Source of the DNA: Desulfovibrio sp.
GTDB lineage: Bacteria > Desulfobacterota > Desulfovibrionia > Desulfovibrionales > Desulfovibrionaceae
DNA length: 64,000 bases
Assembly (NCBI GenBank): GCA_030145055.1
Contig: JAQYWK010000005.1
Coordinates: 248,001-312,000 of the forward strand
Reading direction: 5' to 3'
Made by a program: the position numbers and the translations under genes. This document shows positions 35,531 to 64,000 of this stretch, piece by piece. The notes under the pieces were generated by a model, which searched no databases, was not told the DNA's origin, and worked only from the letters and a program-made list of their open reading frames with translations. Within the stretch, counting starts at the first letter, position 1, and each line of letters begins with the position of its first letter.

Positions 35531-36517
35531 ATGGATAGCGAACTTATTCACAAGTTTAGGGTTCAGGTTGAAAAGGAAACTTACGAAGAGTTTCAGGATG
35601 TTCAAGCGCTGTTTTGCTCTAAAGATTTTTATTTGGAGAGGATCGGGGATTGGTTTGTAATTAAATTTTCTCCCATTTTAGGCTATATGCCCCTTTGGAA
35701 ATATGAGCCCATGACCCGCTATTCCTTTCAGCTTAAAGCGTGGGAATGTAAAATCGGTTCGGCCATATTTTACACTTCCGTTTGTCCTTTTTTCGAATTT
35801 GTGTGTGAGCTTCGAGGGTACACATTGCCCGGCACTGTTTTCGCGGATTCTACCGTTGTGGATGCCGGCCCGTGGAACGGTATTTCAGGAATGTATTTCA
35901 GTGCCGCGGCAAAGGAAGGTCATGTTATCTTTCTGGAGCCGGATAAGCAGAGCGCAGATTTTATTGCCGCAGATATTTATAAGAATAGCTTTGCGAATTG
36001 TGAGCTTGTTAGGAAGGCTCTCTATACCCGAAGCGGAGAAGTAAGCTTTCAGCATAAATCTGGTGGAGAAAGCTGCATTAAGGATGCTGATTTGTCAGTT
36101 GAAACAGATTCGCCTACTGAACGAGGCGTGGATTCATTTACTGTTGAAGCAATTACTTTAAGCGATTTAGTTGCAGATCATGCTCCTAACGGTGTTGATT
36201 TTTTCAAAATGGACATAGAGGGTGTTGAAGTCGATATCGCGGATGATATTGCGCGCTACATTAGTGATAATACTCAGTCGTGGGCGGCAATAGCCTCATA
36301 CCACCAAGTTGGTCCGGTTAGAAGCTCGCATATACTGGAAGAGAAGTTTGCAGCGTATCCAGACTTAGTTTTTAAAACGGCTTATCCATATCATGAGACA
36401 ACCTTTGTCGCGAATGTGAAGAATGAAGCTGTTGCAACAAATATTAGGAAGATGACGAGTTTTGCTGTCGGTTGGAAGGCTATAGATAAGGATGTGAAAA
36501 GACAGGGTGGGCGTTAA
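35531..36517 (+). CDS. FkbM-family methyltransferase
   Basis: 328 residues. The SAM-binding region (from about residue 108: VVDAGPWNGISGMYFS, then VIFLEPDKQ) and the FkbM hallmark FFKMDIEGVEVDI near 225 are clear. The N-terminal 100 residues are not recognised. FkbM enzymes methylate hydroxyls of sugars or secondary metabolites; the acceptor here is unknown. GGAGG precedes the ATG. The stop overlaps the start of the next gene (TAATG), pointing to coupled translation. Confidence 0.85.
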   Translation: MDSELIHKFRVQVEKETYEEFQDVQALFCSKDFYLERIGDWFVIKFSPILGYMPLWKYEPMTRYSFQLKAWECKIGSAIFYTSVCPFFEFVCELRGYTLPGTVFADSTVVDAGPWNGISGMYFSAAAKEGHVIFLEPDKQSADFIAADIYKNSFANCELVRKALYTRSGEVSFQHKSGGESCIKDADLSVETDSPTERGVDSFTVEAITLSDLVADHAPNGVDFFKMDIEGVEVDIADDIARYISDNTQSWAAIASYHQVGPVRSSHILEEKFAAYPDLVFKTAYPYHETTFVANVKNEAVATNIRKMTSFAVGWKAIDKDVKRQGGR

Positions 36518-37770: not shown

Positions 37771-37893
37771 TATTTCCTAGCATGTTATGAGACTGCATTA
37801 GCTGCGAATGTAAAGAATGTATTTGCCGTGTAAATTATTGTTAGAGTGATGAGTTTTTAATCTTGGGCGCGAGTAGCTTTGCACTGCTGATCC

Positions 37894-49219: not shown

Positions 49220-49271
49220 TGGTGGGTAAGAGCCGTTTTGGGACTGCTGAGCACTTGTATGTCAAACTAAG
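49220..49271 (-). repeat. tRNA-Val(GAC) 3'-half fragment A (decayed att-like core)
   Basis: Read on the minus strand it keeps TTGACAT (anticodon loop, GAC), AGCAG (T stem) and terminal ACCA, but about a dozen other positions differ from fragment D, so stems no longer pair fully. The 15 bases GTTCTGCCTAATGGT at its 3' edge are identical to those at fragment B. Most degenerate of the four copies. Confidence 0.6.
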
Positions 49272-49327
49272 TGTTTTTAAAAGAAATATAATTTTCATTC
49301 TCTAAAAAAACTTAAAGTACAGTCACT

Positions 49328-50704
49328 CTATCCGATCTTTTCAAATACATGCAATGTGCGAACGCTATCCGGCATGTCAATAACTTCAAGCTCTTTAAAA
49401 CCAGCATTATAAAATGCCCGTTGAAATTCTTCTAAAGTGTAATCTTCGAAAACATCGTCTCGAGCACTAAGCATTCGCTGTACCTGGCTGTCCTCTTTTG
49501 GAACGAATTCACAAAGGAGCACTCCGTGAGGGCCAAGTAGTGAATGAAAATATTCACTGATCTGAGTAAAAGGAATCCCAGCAGTAAAGAAAAGATGATG
49601 ACACAACGCAAGTGCCAACAACATATCCGCCTCACACCTTTGAGCAAAGCTACTTCTTTCTTCTCCTGCCCATCCAAGAGCTGGGGATGGAGAGGATAGG
49701 TCTAGGATGAGAGGCACAATGTTGTTTGGACCATTTTTGCGCAAATGGCGATAATGGAAATCCACCGCAGCGGGATCAATATCAGCGGCGACAACAGTTT
49801 TAAAATATTTAGATAATGGCTGACTAAATCTGCCGGTATTAGCTCCGAGGTCTACAGCTAATTTACCAGTATGGTTTGAAGCGATAGACTCAACAATGCT
49901 AAGCTTAGCCGCGGTCCCCTCATCTGTATAATTTGTGTCATTGTAGTAGTCGCCCCATTCAGTATTTTGCTTTGGAAAACGTAAGTTTTTGGTAGCATCT
50001 TCAAGAGATTCAATTATCCCCTGAAGCTTATCAAGCGACATATTTCGCGATCCTTTTGATTTAAACGAACGAGGGTCCGCATACTTCTTTTGCAAAGCAG
50101 CATGCAGCACTAAATGCATAAAAATAGACGGATTCAGGTAGGCTTTCCAAGGCAAAAGGGAAGAAGCAATGTCCAGTGGTATGCCGTCAATCCATTGACG
50201 ACTGAGCTGAGCAAGTCGAAGATCTTTTTTAGCGGCAAGAGCAAGTGGAGCTAGGAAGTGAGAACAAAACTGCCCATATGCCTGCCAAGTCTCACCTTGT
50301 TTTCTTTTTTCAAATGAAAAAATATCAATAAATACAGGTCTATTGCCCATGAATTGAACATTGTACGCAGAGGCATCTTTTAAAGTCAGCCCTTTAGCGA
50401 GTGCTTCCTGTTGTAACTTAAGAGTAAGCAGGGCTGCATCTTGAATCTGGCTGAAGCTCCATTCATAAGGGTATGATATAAACGGAACAGGCTCTACCTT
50501 TAAAGTTTTCCAGCTGTTAGGCAAAGCATCGCACTCTTCAAAAGAAACAATAAGTTTATCACTTAAACATTCATCAATGAGTCCAGATTGTACTACCTGT
50601 TTCCAAGTTTCTTTATAGCTAGGCATAATTGTTCGTAAAACATTTTCGCCATCGTGATAAACATATCCCGACCTATCTCTAAATGAACTCAAATCTTTCT
50701 TCAT
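49328..50704 (-). CDS. NoeA-like SAM-dependent methyltransferase
   Basis: 458 residues. The SAM-binding motif I is LAVDLGANTGRFSQ near residue 283, followed by VAADIDPAAVDF, LILDLSSPSPALGW and a late DMLLALALCHHL. The N-terminal 250 residues contain a phosphotransferase-like pattern (LTLKDASAYNVQFMGNRPVFIDI) typical of the NoeA-type family, in which a kinase-like region precedes the methyltransferase. Acceptor unknown; surface carbohydrate is plausible given the next genes. It starts four bp after the small membrane gene and belongs to the unit 51053-53779, 50709-50927, 49328-50704. Confidence 0.8.
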   Translation of the reverse strand: MKKDLSSFRDRSGYVYHDGENVLRTIMPSYKETWKQVVQSGLIDECLSDKLIVSFEECDALPNSWKTLKVEPVPFISYPYEWSFSQIQDAALLTLKLQQEALAKGLTLKDASAYNVQFMGNRPVFIDIFSFEKRKQGETWQAYGQFCSHFLAPLALAAKKDLRLAQLSRQWIDGIPLDIASSLLPWKAYLNPSIFMHLVLHAALQKKYADPRSFKSKGSRNMSLDKLQGIIESLEDATKNLRFPKQNTEWGDYYNDTNYTDEGTAAKLSIVESIASNHTGKLAVDLGANTGRFSQPLSKYFKTVVAADIDPAAVDFHYRHLRKNGPNNIVPLILDLSSPSPALGWAGEERSSFAQRCEADMLLALALCHHLFFTAGIPFTQISEYFHSLLGPHGVLLCEFVPKEDSQVQRMLSARDDVFEDYTLEEFQRAFYNAGFKELEVIDMPDSVRTLHVFEKIG

Positions 50705-50708
50705 GTTG

Positions 50709-50927
50709 CTACTTCCTGACCATGGTTTTTATTGACTGGACAACACTTTTTTTAATTCTTGAAAACACAGCAACACTTGCGATTATCCACTGGACAACAG
50801 TACTGCCAGAACCTGGATCTAAGTATCCTGCGTGGGCCACGTGAGGCATTAAAATAAGCGCACCAACCGAAAAAAAACAGACTGTTATTATAAAACTTTT
50901 TTTATAGTAGCGAGACGCATTGGACAT
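50709..50927 (-). CDS. Small membrane protein with YLDPGSGS motif
   Basis: 72 residues: a cleavable-looking signal segment (about 10-33, ending VAHA), the motif GYLDPGSGSTVVQW, a hydrophobic stretch (IIASVAVFS) and a basic tail. The Y(I/L)DPG(T/S)GS motif recurs in small proteins beside polysaccharide and sulfatase-fold genes; function unknown. AAGGAG eight bases upstream supports the start. Confidence 0.78.
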   Translation of the reverse strand: MSNASRYYKKSFIITVCFFSVGALILMPHVAHAGYLDPGSGSTVVQWIIASVAVFSRIKKSVVQSIKTMVRK

Positions 50928-51052
50928 GGATTTTCTCCTTCATCAAAAAAATGTTCTTCAAGTGTACTAAAAATAGGACCTCTACTGAAAATATCTGAAT
51001 TGACACGCTCTAAAAGATTTTTAATTTTATGCAAAGTTCCTGCCAAAAAAGG

Positions 51053-53779
51053 TTACGTCTCAATGCATTTATCTTTCCACTTTAAATCATAAACTACTGA
51101 TCTATCGAGTACACACTTACACTGCGGTCTGAACAGTTCATATTTTCCGAATTGGTTATAGTGAACAGAAGCATCAATGCCGCGCAGGAATATTTCAGGT
51201 GAATTCATATAGTAAAAAGCCGTATCAAAATTGGGGTTAGGATTGACGATCAGCGTGCTTGCATTTTGCATATAATGTTCAAGGGGAGAAAGGCCGTTAA
51301 GGTGCTTTTTATAATGATCAAAATACCATTTTTCATCAAATGACGACATTGCTCCCCAGGTAGGTTTTCTTGATTCGATGCTTTTCATAGCGATGACCTT
51401 GATTGGCACAAAATCAGGGTGACGAATTTTATTTCTGCTGATCAAAAAACCTATCTGTTCTAAAAGAGCATTACTTTTTGTTTCCGTCATCCCTTCTGAA
51501 AGAGTCTTTAAAGCTTCACTAACATTGCCTTGCCGTTCCAAGCCACAGGCGAGAGCTGAATAAATTCCCGCATACATGGGCTTTTCTGCCAAAACTTTAC
51601 GAGCAACAATTTCTGCTTCTTGCCACTTTTCAGCAACTAAACAAACCAGAAGCTTTCTTACCATGAAAAGTATTCTGTACCATCCAACTGACGACTCTAC
51701 TTTATCATCAAACCACGGAAAAATATTTTCATTTTTCCCATCAAGGTATGCAAGGTATTGCATTTCCAAATCAACAAAGACTTCTACAGGCATATTTCCT
51801 GTTGTTGCGTCATCGTTATTTATTGGTAACTTCGATAATTCGCGAGACTTTATGATACCTTGCGCATACCTCAAGTTCCAATCTTCTGGGAGCACCTTGC
51901 TCTCTGAAAAATTTACAGCGTTCTTTATATACTCATTGGACTTATCTAGACGTCCTTCCCTTTCATAAATGATAGATAGATAGTAGTTAGCCTTACTGGA
52001 ATTAGGTGCAAAACTCAGAATGTTTTGAGCGTATTTTTTGGCATTGCCCAACTTTTTTTGTTTAAGCATTTCCTGTGTGATCATTAGAAACACATCTTCA
52101 GAAGTTGGAAATTTATCACAAAGGCTCACAAGATAATTCATAGCCTTTTCTTTTTGTCCAAACTCAAAATATTTAGATACAAGTGCTAAATGTGCCTCAA
52201 CATTTTGTGAGTCTCGTTCTATTTCGTTCATCAAAAAAGGAATCTGTTCCTCTTCGGTAACCTTCTCCCATTCATCTAAGGCAACTCCATCGCGAGCAAC
52301 GATAAGTCTCCCGAATTGTTTTGATGTGTAGAATGAGAGATTCGGCATCATATCTTCAATATGACTGGGGTCTTGACTAAGTGCTGCAATGATATGGTTA
52401 AAAAGTGTTACATGAGATAAAACCTTCCCTTCAGTATAATGAGAGATAGGCCAATGGATCCCTAAAAAAATTCCGCATTGATCCTTAGCCATAAGGCTTG
52501 GTTTATATCCATGAGATTTAATTACTTCGTTTGGATCAGTGCTTTCACCACATTCAATATTATTAAACCGTCTGGCTCCATGGTCACCAACAGCTACTAT
52601 CAGCGGGTTTGGGTCATTTTCCATGATCATATCAACAGTTTTGACCAGTTGTTTCTCAGCTTTTTCGTAGGAGTTTGCATAAATATCTTGAAAAGTTTCG
52701 AGTTCATCCCAGTTATAGGAAGAGTCCGAGTGCCTTGCCCCGAAATGAAACCAGTGCATTTGCGGAGAATTATGGTTCTCTTTGATTGTTGTTTCTAGCT
52801 TAATGAGTAGGCTATCAAAGTCAGATCTAACTTCAAAAACATCATCAACTGAGAGCTTTTTTCGCAGGAAAGAGGATTGTGCAAGGATAGGAGCAATGTA
52901 TTTATTTAGCTGAAAATCAAGACTTGTAGGGTCGGTACCGATACGATCAAACAGTTCGCTGAAAAACATCCTTATGTGCATGCATGCAAAAAAATTAAGA
53001 CTATAATTGTTTTCTTTAAATGCTGTAAGAATTGCAGAAGGGGCAATTTGAAGGCTGCGTTCTTCGCGTTGATAATCATAAAGGGTTCGAGGCCAGACTA
53101 AATTTTTGAAGGCAGAAACCGTGTTTGTCATATTACTGTAAACATTATCGTACAGCGTAAATTTCTTGTCTTTAAGGAATGAATGAAGCTCATTGTTGTC
53201 GATGTTATATATTTCCTTTAAGGCATCTTTGGAATGAAATGACTCTAAGAAAAGAATATACACATTGGGTTTATGTTTAAAGACAGCACTCTTTTCTGCT
53301 TTTTCCGGTGCTTGTTCATAGGGGGGAGTTACTCCCTTTCTATTGTTTTTTATCATGTCGAAAAGTGAAATAGTCACATACAAAAAAAGTATGGTATTCA
53401 GAACTGCTATGGAAAAAAAGCATGCAATTATAACGAAAAATGCAGTTGTTAATCCGACTGTGTAAAATCTGCTTTTCTTGCTGAGTAGCTCACTTAAGGT
53501 GCGCTCGCTTAAGATGAAAAATAGTCCCAACGATAATAAAGTAGCTACAAGATCACTCCCGAGAGCTCCGTTTTCCGCCAGTCCCATGTTAGCAATAAGA
53601 TAGTTACTTATTACATAATAAAAACCAGCAAAAACAATGCCCACGACACTCATGAGGCATAGGGAATTTCTAATTTGATTTTTTGTAAATAAACTGATGT
53701 TGACTGAAATTATCGAAATAGTAGGGGCAACAATTGCCAGAAAAATAGACAATGCTGGCTCATTATAGAGAGTAAACAT
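51053..53779 (-). CDS. LtaS/EptA-like alkaline-phosphatase-fold transferase with TPRs
   Basis: 908 residues. Five hydrophobic helices (about 5-150), then an alkaline-phosphatase superfamily domain (about 170-490): metal site YILFLESFHS, candidate nucleophile Thr in YSNMTNTVSAF and VAVGDHGARRF as the DH(G) metal ligands. Then TPR units (about 520-780) and a C-terminal segment with two copies of an FD..(W/F)Y...PLEHY-like motif (SFDEKWYFDHYKK and NFDTAFYYMNSPE), known from glycosyltransferases and surface proteins. It likely transfers phosphoglycerol or phosphoethanolamine to a surface polymer from the periplasmic face. AAGGA precedes the ATG. Confidence 0.82.
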   Translation of the reverse strand: MFTLYNEPALSIFLAIVAPTISIISVNISLFTKNQIRNSLCLMSVVGIVFAGFYYVISNYLIANMGLAENGALGSDLVATLLSLGLFFILSERTLSELLSKKSRFYTVGLTTAFFVIIACFFSIAVLNTILFLYVTISLFDMIKNNRKGVTPPYEQAPEKAEKSAVFKHKPNVYILFLESFHSKDALKEIYNIDNNELHSFLKDKKFTLYDNVYSNMTNTVSAFKNLVWPRTLYDYQREERSLQIAPSAILTAFKENNYSLNFFACMHIRMFFSELFDRIGTDPTSLDFQLNKYIAPILAQSSFLRKKLSVDDVFEVRSDFDSLLIKLETTIKENHNSPQMHWFHFGARHSDSSYNWDELETFQDIYANSYEKAEKQLVKTVDMIMENDPNPLIVAVGDHGARRFNNIECGESTDPNEVIKSHGYKPSLMAKDQCGIFLGIHWPISHYTEGKVLSHVTLFNHIIAALSQDPSHIEDMMPNLSFYTSKQFGRLIVARDGVALDEWEKVTEEEQIPFLMNEIERDSQNVEAHLALVSKYFEFGQKEKAMNYLVSLCDKFPTSEDVFLMITQEMLKQKKLGNAKKYAQNILSFAPNSSKANYYLSIIYEREGRLDKSNEYIKNAVNFSESKVLPEDWNLRYAQGIIKSRELSKLPINNDDATTGNMPVEVFVDLEMQYLAYLDGKNENIFPWFDDKVESSVGWYRILFMVRKLLVCLVAEKWQEAEIVARKVLAEKPMYAGIYSALACGLERQGNVSEALKTLSEGMTETKSNALLEQIGFLISRNKIRHPDFVPIKVIAMKSIESRKPTWGAMSSFDEKWYFDHYKKHLNGLSPLEHYMQNASTLIVNPNPNFDTAFYYMNSPEIFLRGIDASVHYNQFGKYELFRPQCKCVLDRSVVYDLKWKDKCIET

Positions 53780-54114
53780 ATTGTATCCTTATCATAATTA
53801 GTCTTATTGGTTAGAAATCAGACATTTCTATTTAGCTAGAGTAAGTTTTTCAATATAAACTTTATCTTTTAATCGCTTAAAATACCAGACCTGATCCTGC
53901 TACATAATAGCTTTTAAAAGTGAATATTGATTTTGTTAATCCAACACTATTACTAACTTTTTAGTCATATTTACCCGCTTCTATATTAAAATCGTATGGG
54001 GGGGCTAAAAAAGATAGGATTGTTATGTTTATCGTGGGTGGGAATAAGCATTTAAGCATGGAGATAATTTGAGTCGTTCACTTCTTATTCTGCAATATTC
54101 CCCACAAAAAAAAA

Positions 54115-54136
54115 CTGGCTATCTTTCGATAACCAG
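54115..54136. terminator. Hairpin next to tRNA-Val fragment B
   Basis: CTGGCTATC, TTTC loop, GATAACCAG with one mismatch. A long A-run lies on the left, so on the minus strand it ends in a T-run, placed just after the tRNA fragment as a tRNA terminator would be. Confidence 0.7.
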
Positions 54137-54151
54137 CCTTGTTCTGCCTAA

Positions 54152-54200
54152 TGGTAGGCACGAGCAGCTTTGAACTGCTGCCCCTTGCATGTTAAGCAAG
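54152..54200 (-). repeat. tRNA-Val 3'-half fragment B (att-like core)
   Basis: Minus strand: anticodon stem CTTGC / GCAAG around TTAACAT (GAC changed to AAC), T arm AGCAG-TTCAAAG-CTGCT, acceptor CGTGCCT, ACCA. Differs from fragment D by one substitution and one missing base. No 5' half of a tRNA adjoins it. Right arm 54201-54278 is shared with C and D. Confidence 0.85.
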
Positions 54201-54393
54201 GAGTATGATTTTGAAATGATTGAATAAAAGTCTGTGATGGGAACGCTTTTGGCGATTTTACGGGTTTTTCGGGGGGGCGGCTAAAGAGTATAGCATGCAA
54301 GCAGGTTCTATCAGCCACAGTATACTGTCTGTACACATTAAATACCAGTTTGTACGCCAAGTCAGCCAAATAAGGCCCTATACTGCCATTGTC

Positions 54394-54858
54394 TTAGGGC
54401 TTTTGTCCTTCCAATACATATAGCGCATATGTTTCACTGGTGGATAACTTTGGTCTCTGCCCCGCAAAACAGTAGTAGGGTGGTTTTTCATCATAAGAGA
54501 CTTCATTAATCATTTTAAATTTATCGATGCCCGCTTCATATAACAACCCAACAGATACAACAAACCTGTTTTGTTTGCTTTTCCATACTTCCTCGTCAAA
54601 TTGATAATGAAGCCTTGTTCCGCATTTGCTGCAAAAATTCCATGTCGCCCAGGCAGCGGGCTTATACGATTTTATCAGTTCCGCTCCTTGAACAATTTTT
54701 ACATCATTACAGCTTGCGCCGAAACCAGGACCGCTGTGTATGTACTGGCATGTGCTGCAATCGCAGGTTGTGAACCCAGTAGCTAGTTCATGTACTTCAA
54801 GTACTACGCTCTTGCAGAGACACTTTGCGGTAACCTTGGATATTCTTTGATCTGGCAT
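54394..54858 (-). CDS. GFA/CENP-V-domain zinc protein
   Basis: 154 residues, cytoplasmic. GFA fold with zinc Cys at KCLCKSVVL (C x C), TTCDCSTCQ (C x C xx C) and NFCSKCGTRL (C xx C). GFA proteins are carbon-sulfur lyases or glutathione-dependent formaldehyde-activating enzymes; most are of unknown substrate. AGAGG upstream supports the start. It directly follows a longer paralog. Confidence 0.87.
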   Translation of the reverse strand: MPDQRISKVTAKCLCKSVVLEVHELATGFTTCDCSTCQYIHSGPGFGASCNDVKIVQGAELIKSYKPAAWATWNFCSKCGTRLHYQFDEEVWKSKQNRFVVSVGLLYEAGIDKFKMINEVSYDEKPPYYCFAGQRPKLSTSETYALYVLEGQKP

Positions 54859-54896
54859 TTTATACCTCTCTACAGTTAAAAGGATCTGTTCATATC

Positions 54897-55505
54897 TTAT
54901 ATTTTTTTTATAATGTCGTCCGATGAAAACTTTTTAGTCTCATGGAAACTGTAGTAATCCGGTTTCATTTCATAGAAAAGTTCGTTTTCCATTGTCATAT
55001 CTTTTGGGCAGATAAGGTGGAGTAAACCCACGGAAACATTGAAACTGTCGTTTACCTTTTTTGATTCTTTGTCATCCTTGCTGTAGAAAAGCCTAGATCC
55101 GCAATGTGAACAGAAATTCCATGCCGTCCAGCTCTTTTGCTGGTTGCTACCTTTATCTATCTCTCCATGTTCCACAGGAAAATTAGATACATGCTCTTTG
55201 CCATTGATAACTTTAATGTTACCGCAATCTGCTCCGTACCATGGACCATTATGTATTAATTGACAGGTGTCGCAATGGCAGACGGAAAATCGGGGGTTCA
55301 TGTTGATAATTCTAAGTACTACCTTTTTGCAGTGGCATGATGCAATAATCTCGGGCTTTCTTTCGCTGTCCAAAATTTCTTCCTCATCTTGCTGCTCGCC
55401 AGCCAAGGCCTCTGATGGTTTATTGAAAACAACGTTTCCTAATCCCAGCACAGCGCCAGTGATGGCTATATTTTTGATGAAATTCCTTCTATTCATTCCG
55501 CCCAT
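54897..55505 (-). CDS. GFA/CENP-V-domain protein with Tat signal
   Basis: 202 residues. A twin-arginine leader NRRNFIKNIAITGAVLGLG precedes an acidic linker and a GFA domain (about 50-180) with the same zinc pattern: ASCHCKKVVL, VCHCDTCQ and NFCSHCGSRL. Export through Tat would put a GFA protein in the periplasm, which is unusual for the family. AAGGAGG just before the first ATG supports the chosen start. Tandem paralog of the next gene. Confidence 0.85.
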   Translation of the reverse strand: MGGMNRRNFIKNIAITGAVLGLGNVVFNKPSEALAGEQQDEEEILDSERKPEIIASCHCKKVVLRIINMNPRFSVCHCDTCQLIHNGPWYGADCGNIKVINGKEHVSNFPVEHGEIDKGSNQQKSWTAWNFCSHCGSRLFYSKDDKESKKVNDSFNVSVGLLHLICPKDMTMENELFYEMKPDYYSFHETKKFSSDDIIKKI

Positions 55506-55814
55506 GAGGCCTCCTTGATAATTTAGATTATGCGGTAGCCGCCGATCCTTGCAACATTTTGAGTTTTTTGATTCCGGAGAAAACCTGTTTTAGCATGCTA
55601 TTTCTTTTGGCCTATTCGAGTCACTCCGCTTTTCCCTAAGTGCATTCTGTCACGCGGTTGGTCGTACCATAGGCTTTATTGGCTACCAATTACAACAATT
55701 TCTCACTGAAATACCAGCGGTAATCGCAATCCCCCATATTCTATAATTATTAATTACATCATTTTCGTGTGTCAAACAAAATGGGTTTTTGCGGTGATTT
55801 GGTGTTGATCCTAG

Positions 55815-56038
55815 TGTAGCTCTCTTGCTAGCTAGCCAAGGGCGCAGGGGCCGCCGCACAAAAGCGCTGAATATAAAAGGGGTGTGAAAGTGGATGGTGG
55901 GGAATGATATATAAATTCAGTATGATACGAGTCGGTGCAAAATTTAATGGAGAACCGCAGATGTTCCCCGACTTGTTTCCCATAAAAAAAGGGTCGATTA
56001 ACCATGTGAGTTAATCGACCAAATTTTTTGACTTTTTT
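55815..56038. repeat. Left arm of element junction C
   Basis: Related to 61800-61979: both begin CTTGCTA..., share CAAGGGCGCAGGGGCCG then CGCA, CTGAATAT, and GGAGAA(C/T)CGCAGA(T/C)GTTCCCCG, and end TTTGACTTTTTTT. Copy C has an extra hairpin of about 40 bp near its right end. Confidence 0.8.
55992..56020. terminator. Hairpin inserted in left arm C
   Basis: GGTCGATTAAC, seven-base loop, GTTAATCGACC, with A-run and T-run flanks; a bidirectional terminator-like stem that is absent from the homologous arm at D. Confidence 0.75.
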
Positions 56039-56087
56039 TGGTAGGCACGAGCAACTTTGAACTGCTGCCCCTTGCATGTCAAGCCAG
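56039..56087 (-). repeat. tRNA-Val(GAC) 3'-half fragment C (att-like core)
   Basis: Minus strand: CTGGC-TTGACAT-GCAAG, GGGC, AGCAG-TTCAAAG-TTGCT, CGTGCCT, ACCA. Anticodon GAC kept; two substitutions and one missing base relative to D. Right arm 56088-56175 is shared with B and D. Confidence 0.87.
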
Positions 56088-56413
56088 AGAAGTGGTTTGT
56101 ATGTATTGAAATGATTGAATAAAACTTTATATTGGGAGCACTTTACGGCGATTTTACGGGTTTTTCGGGGGGGGGCCCGAATGGGATAAGGTTGCTTCTG
56201 GGTGATATGCCACGGAAATCGAAGTTATAGTCTTCTGAATTTGAAACAAACTGTCAGGAAAATGTTTTTGTGGCTTAACTCACTGTCCAGAAAAGTGTGG
56301 CAGGCTCGCTTTCTATGTGTCCTTTATCTGGGACTGTTTTATGATGTCCTTAAAAGCGGTCCTCATTTTGCAATCACTGTCCCTAATGACATTTGATTGA
56401 CACGGAGGTTTTC

Positions 56414-58222
56414 ATGCAGGTCATTATATTAGCGGCTGGGCGCGGGCAAAGATTAAGTCCTTTGACCGACACCACCCCGAAACCATTGGTTGAAGTTAAT
56501 GGGACTCCCTTAATTATTAATGCATTGGATATTCTGTCCAAGCATCATATTGAGAGATTCATTATTGTTGAGGGGTATGAATCCAAGCAGCTCCACGACA
56601 GGTTAGGGGATAGCTATAATGGTATAGAAATCATTTATGTGCACAACCCTGATTGGCATAAGACTAATAACATCCACTCTTTATGGTTATCTAGAGACTA
56701 TTGGAATAAAGACACTCTGTTAATGGAGTGCGACATTTTCTTTGAACCGGAACTTATTGATAATCTTTTTTCCTCCCCATTTGAAAACTCTGTCATGGTG
56801 GACGCCTTCCAGTCCCACATGGACGGAACCGTAGTAGAGTTAACCAAAGATCATAAAAACATCACGCGGCTTATTCCCGGTAAAGATCAGGATGAGAATT
56901 TCAACATTACTGATAAGTATAAGACGGTTAACATTTACACGTTCACCGAAAAATTTCTGCGTGAAATGTTCAGGCCCACCATTGATTTGTACGTAAAGAT
57001 TAACGGACAGAATGAATATTACGAGCTTGTACTGGGTGTGATAATCTTTATGGGTAATAAAGATCTTACCGCTAAAATATGTGCACCTAGCCGTTGGTTT
57101 GAAATCGATGATTTTACCGACCTTCAATTAGCCGAAGCATATTTCAGCGACGATTACTCTTTGTTACAAAAAATACGTAAAAAATACGGCGGGTACTGGC
57201 GCTACGATTTCACTGATTTTGAATACCTCTATAATCCATATTTTCCGACTCAAAATCTTTATAATGAATTACGTTTGAACCTCTCGTCTCTTTTGGGTAA
57301 TTATCCATCGGGACAGCTGGAAATAAATAACTCGCTCGCTAACTGGGCGAGAATTGATGGATCAATGCTCGCCGTAGCTAATGGCGGCGCTGAGCTCATT
57401 GATCTTTTACGCAAAAAATTTATTAAAGTAACATTGCTGCAACCTTCGTTTGATGAATATTCCAGAGGTTTGGAAAAGGAGCAGATGCACATTATTGCCC
57501 CTTTTCCTGATTCTCTAACTCATCTTCCGCAGGAGATTGTGAACGAAGTTAAATCAAGCGGTTCCAATGCACTTGTTTTGATTAATCCCAACAATCCTAC
57601 TGGAGTGCGCTTTAAACATTCTGAGCTAAGCTTTATGTTTAAGGAGCTTAAATCGCTGGATATGATCATTCTAGATGAATCTTTTGCCGATTTTATTGGA
57701 ACAGGGCGAGATACTACATTTTTAGATGAATTAGAAAAGTATCCAAATCTGATAATCTTGCGCAGTTTGAGTAAAGATCTCGGTGTACCGGGGCTTCGTC
57801 TTGGTTATATTGCATCGGCTGATCTCGACTTTATTAGTAAGGTGCGAGCTGACCTACCAATCTGGCATATCAATTCTGTTGCCCAGTATTTCTTGGACAT
57901 ATTACCGAAGTACCGCAATGACTACGCTGAGGCACGTGCTCAAGTTATTGAAGCCAGAGACGAAATGGGACAGCTTTTGCGGGGAGTTCCAAGTCTCAGG
58001 GTTATTCCTTCCTACGCAAATTATTTTTGCTGTGAATTGCCTGATGGTTTTTCTTCGGACAAGGTTCAGGAAGAGCTATTCATGGGATATAAATTACTCG
58101 TTAAAGATCTTGGCACTAAACAGGGATTGCCTGAAAACAGGTACCTTCGCATTGCAGTTAAAACTCCTGAGCAAAACCGCTTTTTTGTAAAGGCGCTAAC
58201 CGAAACACTTAGTAATCAATAG
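56414..58222 (+). CDS. Bifunctional nucleotidyltransferase / aminotransferase
   Basis: 602 residues from an ATG preceded by GGAGG. Residues 1-235: MobA/LicC-like nucleotidyltransferase (LAAGRGQRLSPLT near the start, KPLVEVNGTPL, metal site MECDIFF). Residues about 250-600: HisC-like fold I aminotransferase with NPNNPTGV, LDESFADF and the PLP lysine K454 in RSLSKDLGVPGLRLGY, plus the carboxylate Arg in YLRIAV. It resembles CTP-dependent choline-phosphate or phosphonate cytidylyltransferases fused to aminotransferases, so it may make a CDP-activated amino-alcohol headgroup; no PepM accompanies it, so the substrate is open. First gene of a three-gene operon. Confidence 0.83.
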   Translation: MQVIILAAGRGQRLSPLTDTTPKPLVEVNGTPLIINALDILSKHHIERFIIVEGYESKQLHDRLGDSYNGIEIIYVHNPDWHKTNNIHSLWLSRDYWNKDTLLMECDIFFEPELIDNLFSSPFENSVMVDAFQSHMDGTVVELTKDHKNITRLIPGKDQDENFNITDKYKTVNIYTFTEKFLREMFRPTIDLYVKINGQNEYYELVLGVIIFMGNKDLTAKICAPSRWFEIDDFTDLQLAEAYFSDDYSLLQKIRKKYGGYWRYDFTDFEYLYNPYFPTQNLYNELRLNLSSLLGNYPSGQLEINNSLANWARIDGSMLAVANGGAELIDLLRKKFIKVTLLQPSFDEYSRGLEKEQMHIIAPFPDSLTHLPQEIVNEVKSSGSNALVLINPNNPTGVRFKHSELSFMFKELKSLDMIILDESFADFIGTGRDTTFLDELEKYPNLIILRSLSKDLGVPGLRLGYIASADLDFISKVRADLPIWHINSVAQYFLDILPKYRNDYAEARAQVIEARDEMGQLLRGVPSLRVIPSYANYFCCELPDGFSSDKVQEELFMGYKLLVKDLGTKQGLPENRYLRIAVKTPEQNRFFVKALTETLSNQ

Positions 58223-58239
58223 AGTAAATAGGATTAATT

Positions 58240-58953
58240 ATGAGTCATATTGAGAACAAATGGCAGGAAGTCTGGCTGCGCAAGGGGGCAGAAGAAGGTC
58301 TTTGCGACTTAGAAAGTTTAATGCGTGCTGATGGGTTTGACGCTGGTACGGGAGCAATCTCAGTTGAAGACTGGTTGAAATCATCAACGAATATTCAGGA
58401 AAAGCTTGAGCTGAAAAAAGGTTCAAATGTGCTGGAAGTCGGGTGCGGAGCGGGTGCTATGCTTTGGACTCTTAAGGATCAGCCCGTTAATATTTTTGGT
58501 GTGGATTATTCCAAAACACTCATACAAAAAGCAAAAGAAGCTCTCCCTGAATTGAAGGCGGAAGTTTGCGAAGCTTCATCCATTTCATATCAAGATAAAA
58601 TGTTTGATGCGGTCTTTTCTCACGGAGTTTTCTTCTACTTCAGCGATTATGAATATGCACAAAAAGCAATGGATGAGATTGTGCGGGTTCTAAAGGATGA
58701 TGGTAAAATATACATCCTAGATGTGCCGGATCTTGAAAAACGTGAAGAGTGTGAAACTTTCCGTAGGGATGTAGTTTATTCTGGAGAAGAGTATCCTACC
58801 GCCGAAGATGGTGCGTACAGACACCTTTACTACTCAAAATCGTGGTTTGCCGAATTTGGAGCGCGAAATGGTATGCAGGTTGAGTTTTTTGATCAGGATC
58901 TTGAAAGCTATCCTATGAGTCCTTACAGGTTCAATGCATTGCTAAAATTCTAA
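58240..58953 (+). CDS. Class I SAM-dependent methyltransferase
   Basis: 237 residues. Motif I VLEVGCGAGAMLW near residue 65, FGVDYSKTLI, the Asp-containing FDAVFSHGVFFYF and RVLKDDGKIYILD give a Methyltransf_11 fold. AGGA precedes the ATG. Seventeen bp after the bifunctional gene and 13 bp before the sulfatase-glycosyltransferase, so it is part of the same pathway; N- or O-methylation of a surface headgroup is a guess. Confidence 0.85.
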   Translation: MSHIENKWQEVWLRKGAEEGLCDLESLMRADGFDAGTGAISVEDWLKSSTNIQEKLELKKGSNVLEVGCGAGAMLWTLKDQPVNIFGVDYSKTLIQKAKEALPELKAEVCEASSISYQDKMFDAVFSHGVFFYFSDYEYAQKAMDEIVRVLKDDGKIYILDVPDLEKREECETFRRDVVYSGEEYPTAEDGAYRHLYYSKSWFAEFGARNGMQVEFFDQDLESYPMSPYRFNALLKF

Positions 58954-58966
58954 CCAAATTTTGAAT

Positions 58967-61636
58967 ATGAGTAATAAGAAAAATGTTATCTGGATTGTCA
59001 TCGACACACTTCGGTCTGACATGTTGGCATCCTGCTTATCAAAAGACGCCGTTCCCAATGAGATTGATCATGTTCTGCAAAAAGGAGTCCTTTTTACAGA
59101 TGTGATGACCACTGGAGGTTCAACCAGAGTTTCAGCTCCGGCCTATTTTACTTCCATGCGTCCGGGGCTTACGGGGATGACTAACCATGAAGTGCAGGCT
59201 ATTCGAAATTTTAATGACGAAGCCGTCACGATAACAGAGCATTTTAAGCATTACGGATATAGAACTCTGCGCTGGGATGATAGTAGTTTGGATTCTTGTC
59301 AGCCAAAACGAGGGTTTGATGTTTTTGAGTCTGGTTACCCTACACTGGAACACACGCCAGACAACGATTATGACAATGATCGGCGTGATGCGTTTATCAA
59401 GCAACTTAGGCAGGACGAGACCCCTTTTTTTACAAATATCCATCTTGATTATATTCATGATTTTGGTGGCTATCAAAAGCGGAAATGGTCCACCGAAGAA
59501 TATCTGGATATTGTCGCACTGCAAGCCAAAGACTTCCACAAGCTGTGGACCAAAATTTCCCCCGGACCAAATGATATTGTTGTTGTTACATCTGATCACG
59601 GATGCATTCTGGATCAAGATTATGTTGAATATGATAAAGAAAGACCGTGGGGTTTTTCCAATGCCAGAACCCGCGTTTTAGCCTCGTTTATTGCTGAAGA
59701 TTTATCTCCTTGTAAAAAGCACTCTATGATTCGCAGCATCGATATCGGACCAACATTGCTGGAAATGGCTGTTGGGAAAGAAATGAAAGCTCATGGGGTC
59801 AGCCTTGTACCCATTTTGAGTGGAGAAAAAGAACTTACCGTTGTCGGAATTGCTGAGCGGAGTGTTGCTTTAAGCAAAGAAAGTCTCACGGACTTTGCTT
59901 GTATCAGAGAAAAAGAGTGGAGCTATTTTTTAAGCAAGGGAGAGCCATTAGCCTTATTCAATAATGATGAAGGTGATTTAGTTGAAAACTATATCGGCGA
60001 AAAACCTGAAATAGAAAAACATTTGCATGGTCTTTATACTGAAATAATCAAAGAGGGGCCGCAAACACCCACGGAATTGTATCAGAATACGGGGCTGTCA
60101 GTTTCGGAGATAAGGCAGGGGCCGGAAGTTAGCATTTTACTTCCTGTGTTTGAGTGGTCGGAAGAGTTCAGGCTCTGCTTGGAATCTTTGCTGGATCAGA
60201 TACTAGCGACCGAGGTTATATTGCTCGACGCAGATTCTTCTGGCGAAGTTGCGAGAAATATTTCTGATAATTACCAAGCCAGATTGTTCTTGAAACATGT
60301 TGATGTTGGGCCGTTATCCTTGCAAGAGATGCTGAATCAGGGACTTAATTTAGCCAAAGGTCAGTACTCTGTTACAGCAACACCTCTTTGCCAATATACT
60401 GAAAACTTTTGTTACTTGTTACGAAATGAATTTTTGAGTGATGAAAGCATATCAGTAGCATACCCAAATCTTAAGCGGGTCATACGTGATGCCAGAGAAT
60501 TGGAATATATTGGCAATGATGAATGTTTTGACGAAATATTATTTTCCAGACTCGGCAGTGGATTTGAACATAATGCTTACGCTGCAAGCCAGACTTTGCC
60601 ATATTTTAATGAAATAGGCGCAAGCGCTATGTTTAGGACGGATATGCTGCGAAATGCTGGTGGTTTCGCTAGTGGTGCGGGCGATTTCATTGGGCAGACA
60701 TGGCACATGCTTAGTAAGCTTGGGAGATTAAGACACACTTCTAAAGGTCTACTGCTATCAAAAGATCCGTCTATTTTACGGCCTGTCATGCCTGCTTTAG
60801 ATAAAAAATATCCATTTGATATTAGCGTGTTGATTCCTTTGCTTGAATCAGAAAGTATGAAACATCTACCAAAATTTTTAACAATGCTCTCCAGTCAGGA
60901 AATCAGTAAAATTGAAGTGATTCTAATGCACCTACCCGATAGCGGTGATTTTTTAGAAAAAATAATCGAGTTGTTTCCAAACATAAATATCAGGGTGAAG
61001 TCGCATGAAGGTTCAAGCTATAATCTCTTAAATATGGGCGTTTTTGCATCACGCGGAAAGTACCTGTTCTGGGCTGACCCTACAGATATGCTTTTGCCTA
61101 ATTGTCTGACAACGTTGATGACTTTTTTACAGGAAAATAAAACAGCTAATGCTGTCCGGTGCGGGCATCTGCTCAAAACCCCGTCAGCCCCACCGAGTGT
61201 ATGTGAGCCGTTATGCCGAGCTCTAGATTTTTTGCTAGAACCGAGTGATATGCGAGGGGTTCTTTACAAGCGTGATCTACATGACCAGTCAGGGGTTTTC
61301 AAAGAGAAAACGGTTAAAGAGATTTGGTGGGGCTTATGCTTGCAATTGGCATTGATTGCGCCATTTAATGCTATTAATGAACCGCTAATTCTCGCAGTAA
61401 ATAAAAATCAATTTTCTTTCAAGCTGCAGGCTGATTCTTACCAGAGAATAGTAATAAGTGCTTTAAAGAGTATGGGGGGCATGCTTGATTTAGTACGGCT
61501 TTACGAAGAGGTCTTTCAGAATCACTCAGCAGGACAGGCACGCTTTATAGTCGAAGATGAAATGCTACTGGTACTCACACAGATTAATAATGCAGGTGTT
61601 AACTGTGCTGGGATGATCAAAGTCCCTAAGATATAA
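58967..61636 (+). CDS. Sulfatase-fold / tandem glycosyltransferase fusion
   Basis: 889 residues from the ATG at 58967 (a TTG six bases earlier is less likely). About 1-330: alkaline-phosphatase/sulfatase fold with WIVIDTLRSDML, nucleophile region STRVSAPAYFTSM and VVTSDHG. About 390-600 and 625-800: two GT-A-like domains (VSILLPVFEWSEE; ISVLIPLLESESM), each lacking a clear DxD (the second has FWADPTDML). No signal peptide or membrane helix, so it acts in the cytoplasm. The combination suggests transfer of a sugar together with a phospho- or sulfo-ester group on the same glycan. Last gene of the operon. Confidence 0.8.
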   Translation: MSNKKNVIWIVIDTLRSDMLASCLSKDAVPNEIDHVLQKGVLFTDVMTTGGSTRVSAPAYFTSMRPGLTGMTNHEVQAIRNFNDEAVTITEHFKHYGYRTLRWDDSSLDSCQPKRGFDVFESGYPTLEHTPDNDYDNDRRDAFIKQLRQDETPFFTNIHLDYIHDFGGYQKRKWSTEEYLDIVALQAKDFHKLWTKISPGPNDIVVVTSDHGCILDQDYVEYDKERPWGFSNARTRVLASFIAEDLSPCKKHSMIRSIDIGPTLLEMAVGKEMKAHGVSLVPILSGEKELTVVGIAERSVALSKESLTDFACIREKEWSYFLSKGEPLALFNNDEGDLVENYIGEKPEIEKHLHGLYTEIIKEGPQTPTELYQNTGLSVSEIRQGPEVSILLPVFEWSEEFRLCLESLLDQILATEVILLDADSSGEVARNISDNYQARLFLKHVDVGPLSLQEMLNQGLNLAKGQYSVTATPLCQYTENFCYLLRNEFLSDESISVAYPNLKRVIRDARELEYIGNDECFDEILFSRLGSGFEHNAYAASQTLPYFNEIGASAMFRTDMLRNAGGFASGAGDFIGQTWHMLSKLGRLRHTSKGLLLSKDPSILRPVMPALDKKYPFDISVLIPLLESESMKHLPKFLTMLSSQEISKIEVILMHLPDSGDFLEKIIELFPNINIRVKSHEGSSYNLLNMGVFASRGKYLFWADPTDMLLPNCLTTLMTFLQENKTANAVRCGHLLKTPSAPPSVCEPLCRALDFLLEPSDMRGVLYKRDLHDQSGVFKEKTVKEIWWGLCLQLALIAPFNAINEPLILAVNKNQFSFKLQADSYQRIVISALKSMGGMLDLVRLYEEVFQNHSAGQARFIVEDEMLLVLTQINNAGVNCAGMIKVPKI

Positions 61637-61672
61637 GGGATTACTTGTGATGAGTAATAATCCCTGTTTTGT
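61636..61672 (+). terminator. Terminator after sulfatase-glycosyltransferase gene
   Basis: AGGGATTACT, short loop, AGTAATAATCCCT with one bulge, then GTTTTGTCTTTTT. It overlaps the end of the stop codon region. Confidence 0.75.
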
Positions 61673-61799
61673 CTTTTTCAAGTTACCCGTCCGGCGTGAT
61701 ATGAGGGGGTTTTTATTTCAGCTAGCGAATTGAATATTGTGTCCGAGGATCTACTTGGCGACGTTAAACGTTTAACTACTTACCCGTGATTCAAAGTTT

Positions 61800-61979
61800 G
61801 GAATCCTCTTGCTAACTTGACAAGGGCGCAGGGGCCGACGCAAGCCACCCTGAATATGAAAGAAGTATGAATATGGGATAGATGAAAGGAATGAGATGTG
61901 AAATTGAGTGGATACGAAGCAGGTATGAAATTGACTGGAGAATCGCAGACGTTCCCCGGCCTAATTCTTTGACTTTTTT
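61800..61979. repeat. Left arm of element junction D
   Basis: Homologous to the left arm at C (CAAGGGCGCAGGGGCCG, CGTTCCCCGG, TTTGACTTTTTTT) but without the 40-bp hairpin insertion. Abuts the ACCA end of the tRNA core. Confidence 0.8.
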
Positions 61980-62029
61980 TGGTAGGCACGAGCAGCTTTG
62001 AACTGCTGACCCCTTGCATGTCAAGCAAG
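61980..62029 (-). repeat. tRNA-Val(GAC) 3'-half fragment D (best-preserved core)
   Basis: Minus strand: CTTGC-TTGACAT-GCAAG (anticodon GAC), GGGTC, AGCAG-TTCAAAG-CTGCT, CGTGCCT, ACCA: 50 bases that match a bacterial tRNA-Val(GAC) from the anticodon stem to CCA in every paired position. The expected D arm and 5' acceptor strand are absent from the adjoining right flank, so it is not a full tRNA gene. Confidence 0.9.
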
Positions 62030-62118
62030 AGATAATGTTTGCAGATGTTGAAATAATTGAATAAAATTTAGTGTTGGGAATAATTTTTGGTTATTTTCCG
62101 GATTTTTCGGGGGTGGGT

Positions 62119-62145
62119 GGTTCCCCGTTGAACCTGCGGGGAACC
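62119..62145. repeat. GC-rich hairpin
   Basis: GGTTCCCCG, nine-base loop, CGGGGAACC. No T-run, so not a standard terminator. It lies at the end of right arm D. Confidence 0.5.
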
Positions 62146-62333
62146 AAATTTAATTAATGTATGTTTTTATGCTGCCGTTCCATGGCTTCAACAACATGTC
62201 TCGGTTTCAACGATAGCAGTTGGGAAAGAATTGTGTTTGTATAAACGCGTCAAAATTGTCCTTTGTTATGTGTTGTTTAGCCATAAGTTACATAATATTT
62301 TGTGTGGTACAAACGGATAGGGAAGCTTAACAG

Positions 62334-63583
62334 ATGAAAAGAATGCGAAAACCGCTCCAGACCCTTCTGATTAAGCCGGCAGGACCTGACTGCAACATGG
62401 CTTGCAGCTATTGTTTCTATTTGGAAAAGGCTTCGCTTTTTCATGATAGTCCAAGCCCTCGGATGTCTCAATACGTGCTGGAGGAAATGGTTAGTCAGGC
62501 CATGGAACAGTCCGGGAGCCAAATAAATTTCATCTGGCAGGGGGGAGAACCCACGTTGATGGGGCTAGAATTCTATCGGAAATGCGTTGAACTCCAGCAA
62601 CGCTTCGGTCGTGGACAGGTCGTGGGAAACGGACTCCAGACCAACGGTCTGCTTATCGATGACGAATGGATTCGCTTCCTGAAATCTTACAACTGGCTCG
62701 TAGGGTTGTCTCTGGACGGCCCGCAACATGTGCACGACCATTACGCAGGGCCCGGGGCGGCGGCGGTACATGGGGAAAGGTAACGGCCAGCGCCGAGAAA
62801 ATGCTCGCCGCCGGTCTGGCTGTCAACGCCCTCATTGTTGTGAACGATTACAGTGTCCAGTTTCCGGACGAAATATACGCGTTTCACAAGAACCTCGGTT
62901 TATCCCACATGCAATTCATCCCTTGCGTGGAAACGGATAAGGACGATCCATCTCGTGTTCTCGATTTTTCCGTACCCGCAGAGGGATACGGGCGTTTTCT
63001 CTGCCGGCTTTTCGATCTGTGGATGGACGATTTCTCGGGGCTGGAGCCTGCCACATCCGTGCGTTTGTTTGAATCATTGTTTTACACGTATATCGGGCAA
63101 CCTTCACCTGAATGCACCCTGCTCGATTAGTGCGGAACCTATGTCGTGGTGGAACATACTGGCGATGTCTATTCCTGTGACTTTTTTGTTCATCCCGCGT
63201 GGAGCCTCGGCAATGTGGAAGACTCGAACCTGTTGGAAATGTTGAACGCCGAGATACAATGTGTTTTCGGCCGAATAAAAGCGAACCTGCCCGACGAATG
63301 CAAACGCTGCAGATGGCTTTCCCTTTGCAAGGGCGGGTGCCCGAAGGACCGGCTCCCGGGGCAGGCGGGGAAAGCTTCGAATCACCTGTGTTCGGCATAT
63401 CGGATGTTCTTCGAATACTCGGACGAAAGGTTTCACAGGCTCGTGAAAAGATGGGAAAGACAGTACTCCGATAAACAGGCAGAAGATCGAACAGGAGGGC
63501 GGCCCGCCGGAGCCAAGGTCGGCAGAAACCGGCCTTGTCCCTGTGGAAGCGGGAAGAAGTACAAGAGATGTTGTGGTGCTTAA
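62334..63583 (+). pseudogene. Anaerobic sulfatase-maturating enzyme, frameshifted and interrupted by TAG
   Basis: Radical-SAM enzyme that makes formylglycine in anaerobic sulfatases. The first part has C20-C24-C27 of the 4Fe-4S cluster (CNMACSYCF) and FIWQGGEPTLMG. After HDHY, near 62744, one base is missing: the expected GGGGTWGKVTASAEKM continues in another frame. That frame then meets TAG at 63128-63130, between LLD and [19 protein letters not shown], and continues in the same frame through the C-terminal Cys cluster ([15 protein letters not shown]) and a SEC-C zinc tail ([16 protein letters not shown]). Two lesions make a functional product unlikely. The stretch is visibly more GC-rich than the modules to its left. 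Confidence 0.88.
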
Positions 63584-63727
63584 GTAAAAAAATTGTCCCG
63601 ACCCATATTATAGCGTATAGTGGCTCCAGTTTTGTGGCTCGACGTTTCGCATGGTTCTCTTTGCGATATTTAGATTACGTCGGCTCGCAGTCAACAGGTC
63701 CGGTAATTCCCTGAAAGGAGCAGGGCA

Positions 63728-64000
63728 ATGAAAGATAAGACACGGCGCGAATTTCTGAAAAGCGGTTTGGCGTTGACAGTCGGGGTTATGGCCTCCGGTG
63801 TGCTGGATAACGCAGGAACCGTGAGTGCAAAGGTAACTGCCGACAGCAAGACGGCTTCACACTTGAAAGCAGGCGTGAAGAAACGCAGCAATATCGTGTT
63901 GATCATCACGGACCAGCAGCGGCAGGACCGGCACTGGCCGACCGGATGGATCGAGGAACATATGCCCACTATGGCGCGCTTACAGCAGCACGGCGTGACC
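63728..64000 (+). CDS. Sulfatase with Tat signal, 3' end outside window
   Basis: The frame is open from the ATG at 63728 (AAGGAG upstream) to the right edge, 91 residues. A twin-arginine leader (TRREFLKSGLALTVGVM) is followed at about residue 54 by NIVLIITDQQRQDRHWP, the N-terminal metal-binding strand of formylglycine sulfatases and related arylsulfatases. The FGly site would lie beyond the window. It is preceded by the maturase remnant, the usual activating partner. GC-rich like that remnant. Confidence 0.82.
   Translation, partial: MKDKTRREFLKSGLALTVGVMASGVLDNAGTVSAKVTADSKTASHLKAGVKKRSNIVLIITDQQRQDRHWPTGWIEEHMPTMARLQQHGVT

Follow-up and report, generated by a model that had tools for sequence, protein, structure and literature searches.

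How does a chromosome come to carry several truncated copies of one tRNA gene in a row, with unrelated genes between them? The question is raised by a 64,000-nucleotide stretch of a Desulfovibrio sp. genome (assembly GCA_030145055.1, contig JAQYWK010000005.1, here C7; positions C7:248001-312000 of a contig that ends at 315425), hereafter the window. The original prediction, made from this stretch, was that four 3' halves of tRNA-Val(GAC) on the minus strand, each without a 5' half, mark a tandem array of att-like junctions with four gene cassettes between and beyond them. We find that the array very probably formed by tandem accretion, at the 3' end of tRNA-Val(GAC), of tyrosine-recombinase cassettes that resemble cis-mobilizable elements (CIMEs).

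The 3'-terminal 50-mer of the genome's own tRNA-Val(GAC) was searched against the window with BLAST, with 300 shuffles of this core as the control. All four predicted halves were recovered, and a weaker match appeared further left:

61980..62029, minus strand: tRNA-Val(GAC) 3' half, copy 1, nearest the intact tRNA; 100%, 50/50 identical, E value 6.6e-22
56039..56087, minus strand: tRNA-Val(GAC) 3' half, copy 2; 94%, 47/50 identical, E value 2e-16
54152..54200, minus strand: tRNA-Val(GAC) 3' half, copy 3; 96%, 48/50 identical, E value 4e-18
49220..49265, minus strand: tRNA-Val(GAC) 3' half, copy 4, decayed; 78%, 38/50, E value 4e-5, 35.6 bits
37866..37893, minus strand: weak candidate fifth tRNA-Val remnant, without flank support; 86% over 28 bp, E value 1.6e-4, 33.7 bits

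The top score among the shuffled cores (n=300) was 31.9 bits, below the copies at 49220 and 37866. By these alignments, chance is excluded for copies 1-3 and unlikely for copy 4, which ends in ..CCCACCA and has 14 bp of flank largely in common with copy 3. The match at 37866-37893, close to where the hotspot ends on its far side, may be what is left of a fifth and very old tRNA-Val half; it was left out of the 60-site counts given below. Among 21 distinct halves of other tRNAs, drawn from the loci analysed and searched against the window, one hit is a real tRNA-Gln and one is a match with an E value of 0.007. ARAGORN and Rfam (gathering score) call tRNA-Gln(TTG) alone in the window and no gene at the four fragments. 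A search of the whole genome with a query around 54152 yielded a single additional strong copy, on contig C5, which is the intact tRNA-Val(GAC) gene (C5:771-845, typed by ARAGORN).

If C7 and C5 are joined, as we prefer, this intact gene would lie about 4.1 kb to the right of the window, in the same orientation as the displaced halves. The last 127 bases of C7 are identical to the first 127 of C5, an overlap expected where contigs are cut at a repeated stretch; contig C3 begins with the same 127 bases, which is explained by the mini-Rhs element found there at tRNA-Pro(GGG), 95% identical over 634 bp. The join of C7 to C5 is preferred because four relatives (G002, G005, G006 and G011) have both sides on a single contig, with MerR and tRNA-Val on one side and FkbM and/or DegP on the far side, and because the window holds no tRNA-Pro(GGG) half. 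Given this join, the entire hotspot, from the intact tRNA to FkbM (window position 36517), measures about 31.5 kb. Its far side is marked by one gene:

35531..36517, plus strand: FkbM methyltransferase, landmark on the far side of the hotspot; 61-76% to the DegP-adjoining gene in G005, G006 and G011

The two near-identical mini-Rhs elements (L058 1-868 on C3 at tRNA-Pro(GGG); L053 1-845 on C5 at tRNA-Val(GAC)) both lie at assembly breaks of their own genome.

Occupancy of the tRNA-Val site varies among relatives. A 159-base query around 61980 matched in 83 of 98 genomes, mostly over the tRNA part only. Displaced tRNA-Val halves are present in 10 of the 17 genomes of the genus, the own genome included (G000, G001, G003, G004, G005, G006, G012, G014, G015 and G016). 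None was seen in the matches or partial stretches of the other seven (G002, G007, G008, G009, G010, G011 and G013), among which G009 was represented by matches only, with no stretch read and a genome 84% complete, so that absence there is not proven. In the MerR-bearing relatives within the genus, tRNA-Val adjoins MerR in 15 of 15. The gene order in G011 is MerR, tRNA-Val, one open reading frame (ORF) of 136 aa, FkbM, DegP and tRNA-Gln, with 0.87 kb between tRNA-Val and FkbM, which comes close to the empty site that was to be looked for; in G002, DegP starts 0.42 kb from tRNA-Val, and two motifs like those of class C (see below) are left there. Other species carry different single cassettes at the same tRNA-Val place. 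The locus is thus bounded as a genomic island, with an intact tRNA at one end, a displaced 3' fragment at the other and a site that is empty or nearly so in relatives.

Insertion would recombine within the tRNA 3' half, near the anticodon stem-loop. The incoming element would restore the tRNA with its own 3' half and, as a rule, supply a terminator, while the old half would be pushed outward as a scar, so that newcomers would join at the tRNA side. Cassettes without an integrase would move only with one provided by a neighbour or a helper. We infer both the sequential insertion of units and the movement of cassettes by a helper. Accretion at the tRNA side predicts that identity to the host tRNA half declines with distance, and the alignments mostly, not strictly, follow this: counted outward from the tRNA, 50, 47, 48 and 38 of 50 positions are identical in the own genome, 49, 49 and 46 in G004, and 50, 49 and 34 in G012. 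The first unit of G005 shares a protein, 85% identical, with the gene that follows the displaced half in G014, a pattern to be expected had G014 subsequently acquired a unit at the tRNA side.

In tRNA orientation, each site consists of the far end (E) of one element, the core (the tRNA half) and the tRNA-side end (R) of the next. Of 60 sites, 52 have a terminator-like hairpin with a T run past the core, a few of these being weak, compared with 94 of 1200 base shuffles. The ends fall into three classes by short repeats. Class A has GGGGAAC in R and GTTCCC in E; class B has GGTCAAC, mostly twice, in R, and GTTGACC with a further GGTCAAC in E; class C has GGTNTACA repeats in R. The distance from the CCA to the start of the first class A or B motif is 46-52 bases at 20 of the 24 sites. 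When R is assigned to a class by its motif and E by BLAST against the reference ends, the two ends agree in 18 of 20 classifiable pairs for classes drawn from these same data (8.3 expected; 0 of 20,000 permutations as high), and when one pair per genome is taken (11 genomes), 19 of 20,000 permutations are as high.

The same classes recur at other tRNA genes: class A at tRNA-Ala(GGC) in G004, G007 and G016 and at tRNA-Pro(TGG) in G001, G003, G007 and G010, and class B at tRNA-Ala in G002 and, weakly, G015. Across the 17 genomes of the genus, the exact tandem class B pattern has 23 matches against 3 for its reversed form, 18 of the 23 being at these tRNA sites; for class A there are 10 matches against 2, with 7 of the 10 at these sites. 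Class C motifs adjoin the integrase gene in three of the four closest homologs of the class C integrase (L188, L189 and L199), and the fourth (L190) has no class C motif within its locus. Because the tandem patterns concentrate at tRNA sites and class C motifs adjoin integrases, we infer that the repeats are putative arm-type binding sites of tyrosine integrases.

Tandem matches in seven further loci (L213, L218, L222, L228, L232, L233 and L236), with no tRNA in the context shown, were taken for chance, and the idea that L222 is the end of the G010 element was dropped. Collection-wide end patterns were too loose to serve as evidence of distribution, 5 of 394 matches in the fetched loci following a tRNA-like T arm. 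A class B tandem repeat also lies in the middle of the 6-kb tRNA-Val unit of G001 (L122, C1:1978905), between its mini-Rhs and metabolic parts; this unit is possibly two units fused after losing the intervening core.

In the own stack, counted from the tRNA outward, the cores delimit the following segments and ends:

62030..64000, and on through C7 (3.4 kb) and C5 (0.77 kb) to the intact tRNA-Val: segment 1, composite
62030..62118, minus strand: class A far end (E) of the element right of copy 1; 77% over 81 bp and 80% over 70 bp to the E ends beside copies 2 and 3
56088..61979: cassette 2, 5.9 kb, class A at both ends, three ORFs of at least 90 aa
61730..61979, minus strand: tRNA-side end (R) of cassette 2; one GGGGAAC 22 bases past the CCA; 75% over about 150 bp to the R end of cassette 3
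56088..56165, minus strand: far end (E) of cassette 2, class A; E value 3e-21 to reference class A ends
54201..56038: cassette 3, 1.84 kb, class A at both ends by end classing
55790..56038, minus strand: tRNA-side end (R) of cassette 3; hairpin of -18 kcal/mol with T run, one GGGGAAC 69 bases past the CCA
54201..54283, minus strand: far end (E) of cassette 3, class A; E value 1e-14 to the other reference class A ends
54100..54151, minus strand: terminator adjoining copy 3, hairpin of -16.7 kcal/mol with T run, no arm motif recognised
49266..54151: segment 4, ends without class, two proteins

The tandem array first proposed is supported, in that the cores align with the genome's own tRNA-Val(GAC) and no strong copies lie elsewhere in the genome, with three amendments. 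First, the segment right of 61980 is no simple cassette. Segment 1 holds, in order, a broken maturase, a broken sulfatase, the C-terminal remnant of a class C integrase, a 233-aa protein without a Pfam match, a mini-Rhs gene and a class C tRNA-side end. Over 118 aa, this remnant matches the integrase that adjoins tRNA-Val in G006 at 98% identity, and the sulfatase reading stops where the integrase remnant starts. The ends of the segment differ, class C on one side and class A on the other, which suggests that it is a fusion of two elements. Its radical-SAM maturase and sulfatase genes (window 62334-63583, and 63728 to C7:312567), named by eye, are broken, with split frames and a truncated end. 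The other two amendments are that the array runs beyond the window to the tRNA and that the boundary at 49220 is decayed, with no recognisable end sequence adjoining it.

Beyond segment 1, the cargo consists of these genes:

56393..58222, plus strand: cassette 2, nucleotidyltransferase-aminotransferase fusion, 609 aa (PF00483, PF00155)
58240..58953, plus strand: cassette 2, methyltransferase, 237 aa (PF08241)
58961..61636, plus strand: cassette 2, sulfatase-family/glycosyltransferase 2 fusion, 891 aa (PF00884, PF00535)
54897..55505, minus strand: cassette 3, GFA-family protein, 202 aa (PF04828)
54394..54858, minus strand: cassette 3, GFA-family protein, 154 aa (PF04828)
51053-53779: segment 4, sulfatase/TPR protein
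49328-50704: segment 4, protein with weak methyltransferase matches

No hairpin with a T run was found in the R end of cassette 2 (61730..61979). Neither tblastn in cassettes 2 and 3 nor Pfam and tblastn in segment 4 revealed an integrase, leaving the C-terminal remnant in segment 1 as the only one in the island. The two cassettes and segment 4 have no Pfam match to phage structural genes and do not qualify as prophages. Just inside the far end of cassette 2, a 76-bp stretch (56232-56307) is 94.7% identical to C2:2490-2565, which overlaps the 3' end of an IS3-like transposase ORF (identified by eye), and represents an insertion sequence remnant.

Similar units are found across the genus. If a unit must be flanked by cores and have a far end of class A or B, and the own segment 1 is excluded as composite, 24 units are delimited, six of which have no class at the tRNA-side end and one of which is discordant:

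tRNA-Val units: own cassettes 2 and 3; G001, G003, G004 (three), G005 (two), G012, G014, G015, G016
tRNA-Pro units: G001 (three), G003, G007 (two), G010
tRNA-Ala units: G004 (two), G015, G016

All but two are shorter than 7.2 kb (22/24). One in G005 (L128 2117-2262) measures 146 bp, has ends of class B and contains no ORF; of the two tRNA-Val cores that flank it, the first is truncated. A tblastn search with eight integrases (E values up to 0.01) detected no integrase in 23 of the 24 units, 6.1 of the 7.1 kb of the unit G004_V2 being covered; across 31 stretches, the sole matches were two own class C remnants, beside tRNA-Val and on C2. The 24th unit, which is in G004, measures 56 kb and is of class B, holds two integrase ORFs along with genes that look Mu-like by eye. 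No relaxase, conjugation or mobilisation Pfam domain was found among 50 proteins (10 + 30 + 10), a subset of the ORFs that lies partly outside the 24 units; this set includes one ISL3 transposase, in the tRNA-Ala unit of G015, and one integrase fragment, in the own segment 1.

The cargo is mixed and includes methyltransferases, sulfatase-like and GFA proteins, SMR efflux, an ECF sigma factor, CHAT, BadF/MMPL, kinase-PP2C-VWA and helicase genes, and a recurrent mini-Rhs gene with a small neighbour, taken for a putative immunity gene. The mini-Rhs gene occurs with class B ends at tRNA-Val in G001, G003 and G015, with a class A far end at tRNA-Val in G012, with class A ends at tRNA-Pro in G001, G007 and G010, and, in the own genome, beside class C ends at both tRNA-Val and tRNA-Pro. 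Over 188 aa, the toxin-tip ORFs of G001_P3 (class A, tRNA-Pro) and G003_V (class B, tRNA-Val) are 88% identical, and the small neighbour proteins of G003_V and G007_P1 (class A, tRNA-Pro) share 82% identity. Mini-Rhs and toxin-tip cargo is shared across classes, and cargo therefore changes ends and targets. Three consecutive units at tRNA-Pro(TGG) in G001 (L149 5058-11820) include two with mini-Rhs pieces and one encoding a 601-aa protein with a weak likeness to ApeA (PADLOC E value 8e-10). A tRNA-Ala unit of G004 (L152 2095-6249) encodes a kinase with a Top1 zinc finger, a PP2C phosphatase and a VWA protein, a set that we take to resemble TerY-type triads.

The search for an integrase that could move such cassettes used a profile built from five seeds. 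At 21 loci with integrase homologs, motif checks showed that paired motifs beside integrases are of class C only, and single class B-type motifs occur near integrase and tRNA genes in two loci (L194 and L206). G010 has a class B end at tRNA-Val with an integrase-like short ORF 12 kb further (L133, E value 1e-7); in the stretch read, this tRNA-Val has no displaced half, and it lies outside the 24 units. Outside the genus, a Desulfosarcina widdelii locus (L331) combines tRNA-Leu with a terminator, a motif of class B and an integrase ORF that extends up to the site. On a viral contig (L476), a class A motif accompanies a tRNA half, and an integrase ORF lies at a distance of about 9 kb. When the class C integrase and a mini-Rhs protein were searched against phages and plasmids, all matches were below 60% identity. 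The genus searches yielded no parent element for the class A and B ends; the class C remnant is consistent with decay.

Several observations weigh against tandem accretion of CIME-like cassettes. Across the 17 genomes of the genus, no integrase was found beside tandem class A or B ends by homology, tandem-arm patterns or context, and neither excision nor transfer has been observed. The 127-bp overlap is also present on C3, and the join of C7 to C5 rests on synteny and on the lack of a tRNA-Pro(GGG) half. The gradient of identity is not strict, with 47 followed by 48 in the own stack and 36 (truncated), 43 and 39 in G005. The R motifs of the own cassettes, at the unusual distances of 22 and 69 bases, are among the four exceptions to the common spacing; two of the 20 classifiable pairs are discordant, namely the own segment 1 (C/A) and the G015 tRNA-Ala unit (C/B, both calls weak); and the classes were defined from the data in which their agreement was tested.

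The small, precise size of the units, together with the lack of any integrase trace in the 23 screened, could also mean that class A and B cassettes are a dedicated non-autonomous family, that is, minimal units moved in trans by arm-recognising helper integrases and not decayed islands, much like integrase-less integron arrays or phage satellites. The recurrence of the same end classes at different tRNAs and the cargo that crosses them (G001_P3 and G003_V; G003_V and G007_P1) fit such a family as well. However, no helper was found, the 56-kb class B unit with its two integrase ORFs demonstrates that such ends also occur on larger units, and the available portions of the papers on CIMEs report the same sizes, gene-less micro forms included; a dedicated family is conceivable, if rather doubtful. 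Another possibility is that a single large island was broken by deletions and that the tRNA halves are internal duplications, for which one could cite the clearly composite, degraded segment adjoining the tRNA and the class B repeat in the middle of the G001 tRNA-Val unit, as if two units had fused. Cassettes with independent matched ends and unrelated cargo, and the different single cassettes at the same place in other species, make this scenario highly improbable. Chance, or a dispersed repeat derived from a tRNA, might be entertained for the weak copies at 49220 and 37866, but strong displaced copies are confined to this locus, with none elsewhere in the genome, and 0 of 300 shuffles reach the observed scores, so that we give this explanation practically no credence.

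Accretion of CIME-like cassettes, the reading we prefer, shows tRNA ends accumulating short recombinase-free cargo in a stack, with the tRNA kept and most units bringing their own terminator. From the end classes matched at several tRNAs follows a testable prediction of which integrase moves which cassette, which is relevant to the spread of islands without an integrase, and the end motifs suggest a route to more cassettes, including toxin and defence-like genes missed by island finders that rely on integrases. A broader proposal, which we put forward as unlikely in its full extent, is that tRNA 3' halves serve throughout the genus as sockets for recombinase-free cassettes of 0.15-14 kb, which are defined by nothing more than a tRNA half, in most cases a terminator, and paired arm repeats, and which helper integrases move in trans. 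If true, such cassettes would use several tRNA genes and trade toxin/immunity and defence-like cargo between end classes, as integrase-less integron cassettes would with tRNA genes for recombination sites.

CIME-like accretion is known as a kind. Titles and abstract openings of the open-access literature yielded no description of these arrays, and the portions of the literature examined do not describe a set of matched end classes that several tRNA genes of a genus have in common, in stacks composed largely of units without an integrase.

Ccr-like integrases are serine recombinases. According to the available part of the report on them (PMC3146451), the ssrA islands of Dehalococcoides are likewise tandem and bounded by the 3' end of an RNA gene, and 15 of the 31 have no integration module and have been proposed to be cis-mobilizable; the islands have a Ccr-like integrase and a tmRNA target, whereas the targets here are tRNAs and the integrase remnant is of the tyrosine type. 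The additive flexible islands of Methylophilaceae, described in part of PMC10872708 as having repeated tRNA-Lys ends, a 20-bp repeat and cargo of 330 bp to 42 kb, share with our locus the tRNA-end repeats beside variable cargo; that part mentions no end classes, such as are present here. Tycheposons are cargo elements at tRNA genes and carry a tyrosine recombinase (PMC10872708 and PMC11389934, in the portions available); compared by description only, the class A and B cassettes differ in that 23 units have no tyrosine recombinase of their own.

The closest likeness is to the CIMEs of Streptococcus, which are flanked by att sites and lack integrase and transfer genes (available parts of PMC7563491 and PMC5704250). 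In S. salivarius, tandem CIMEs measure 1.2-13 kb and gene-less microCIMEs 130-220 bp (same part of PMC7563491). Like these CIMEs and microCIMEs, which occur in tandem with integrative and conjugative elements (ICEs) and integrative and mobilizable elements (IMEs), the units described here are integrase-less, att-flanked and stacked at one target gene by accretion, and the gene-less 146-bp unit of G005 corresponds in size to a microCIME. Cassettes 2 and 3, among others, have a core on each side and matched R and E ends, and 23 of the 24 units have no integrase; in G006 and G012, an integrase-bearing class C element lies in the same stack. Unlike the Streptococcus CIMEs, as far as those sources describe them, the cassettes target tRNA-Val(GAC), tRNA-Ala(GGC) and tRNA-Pro within one genus, several of their stacks are integrase-less throughout, and two end classes are common to several targets.

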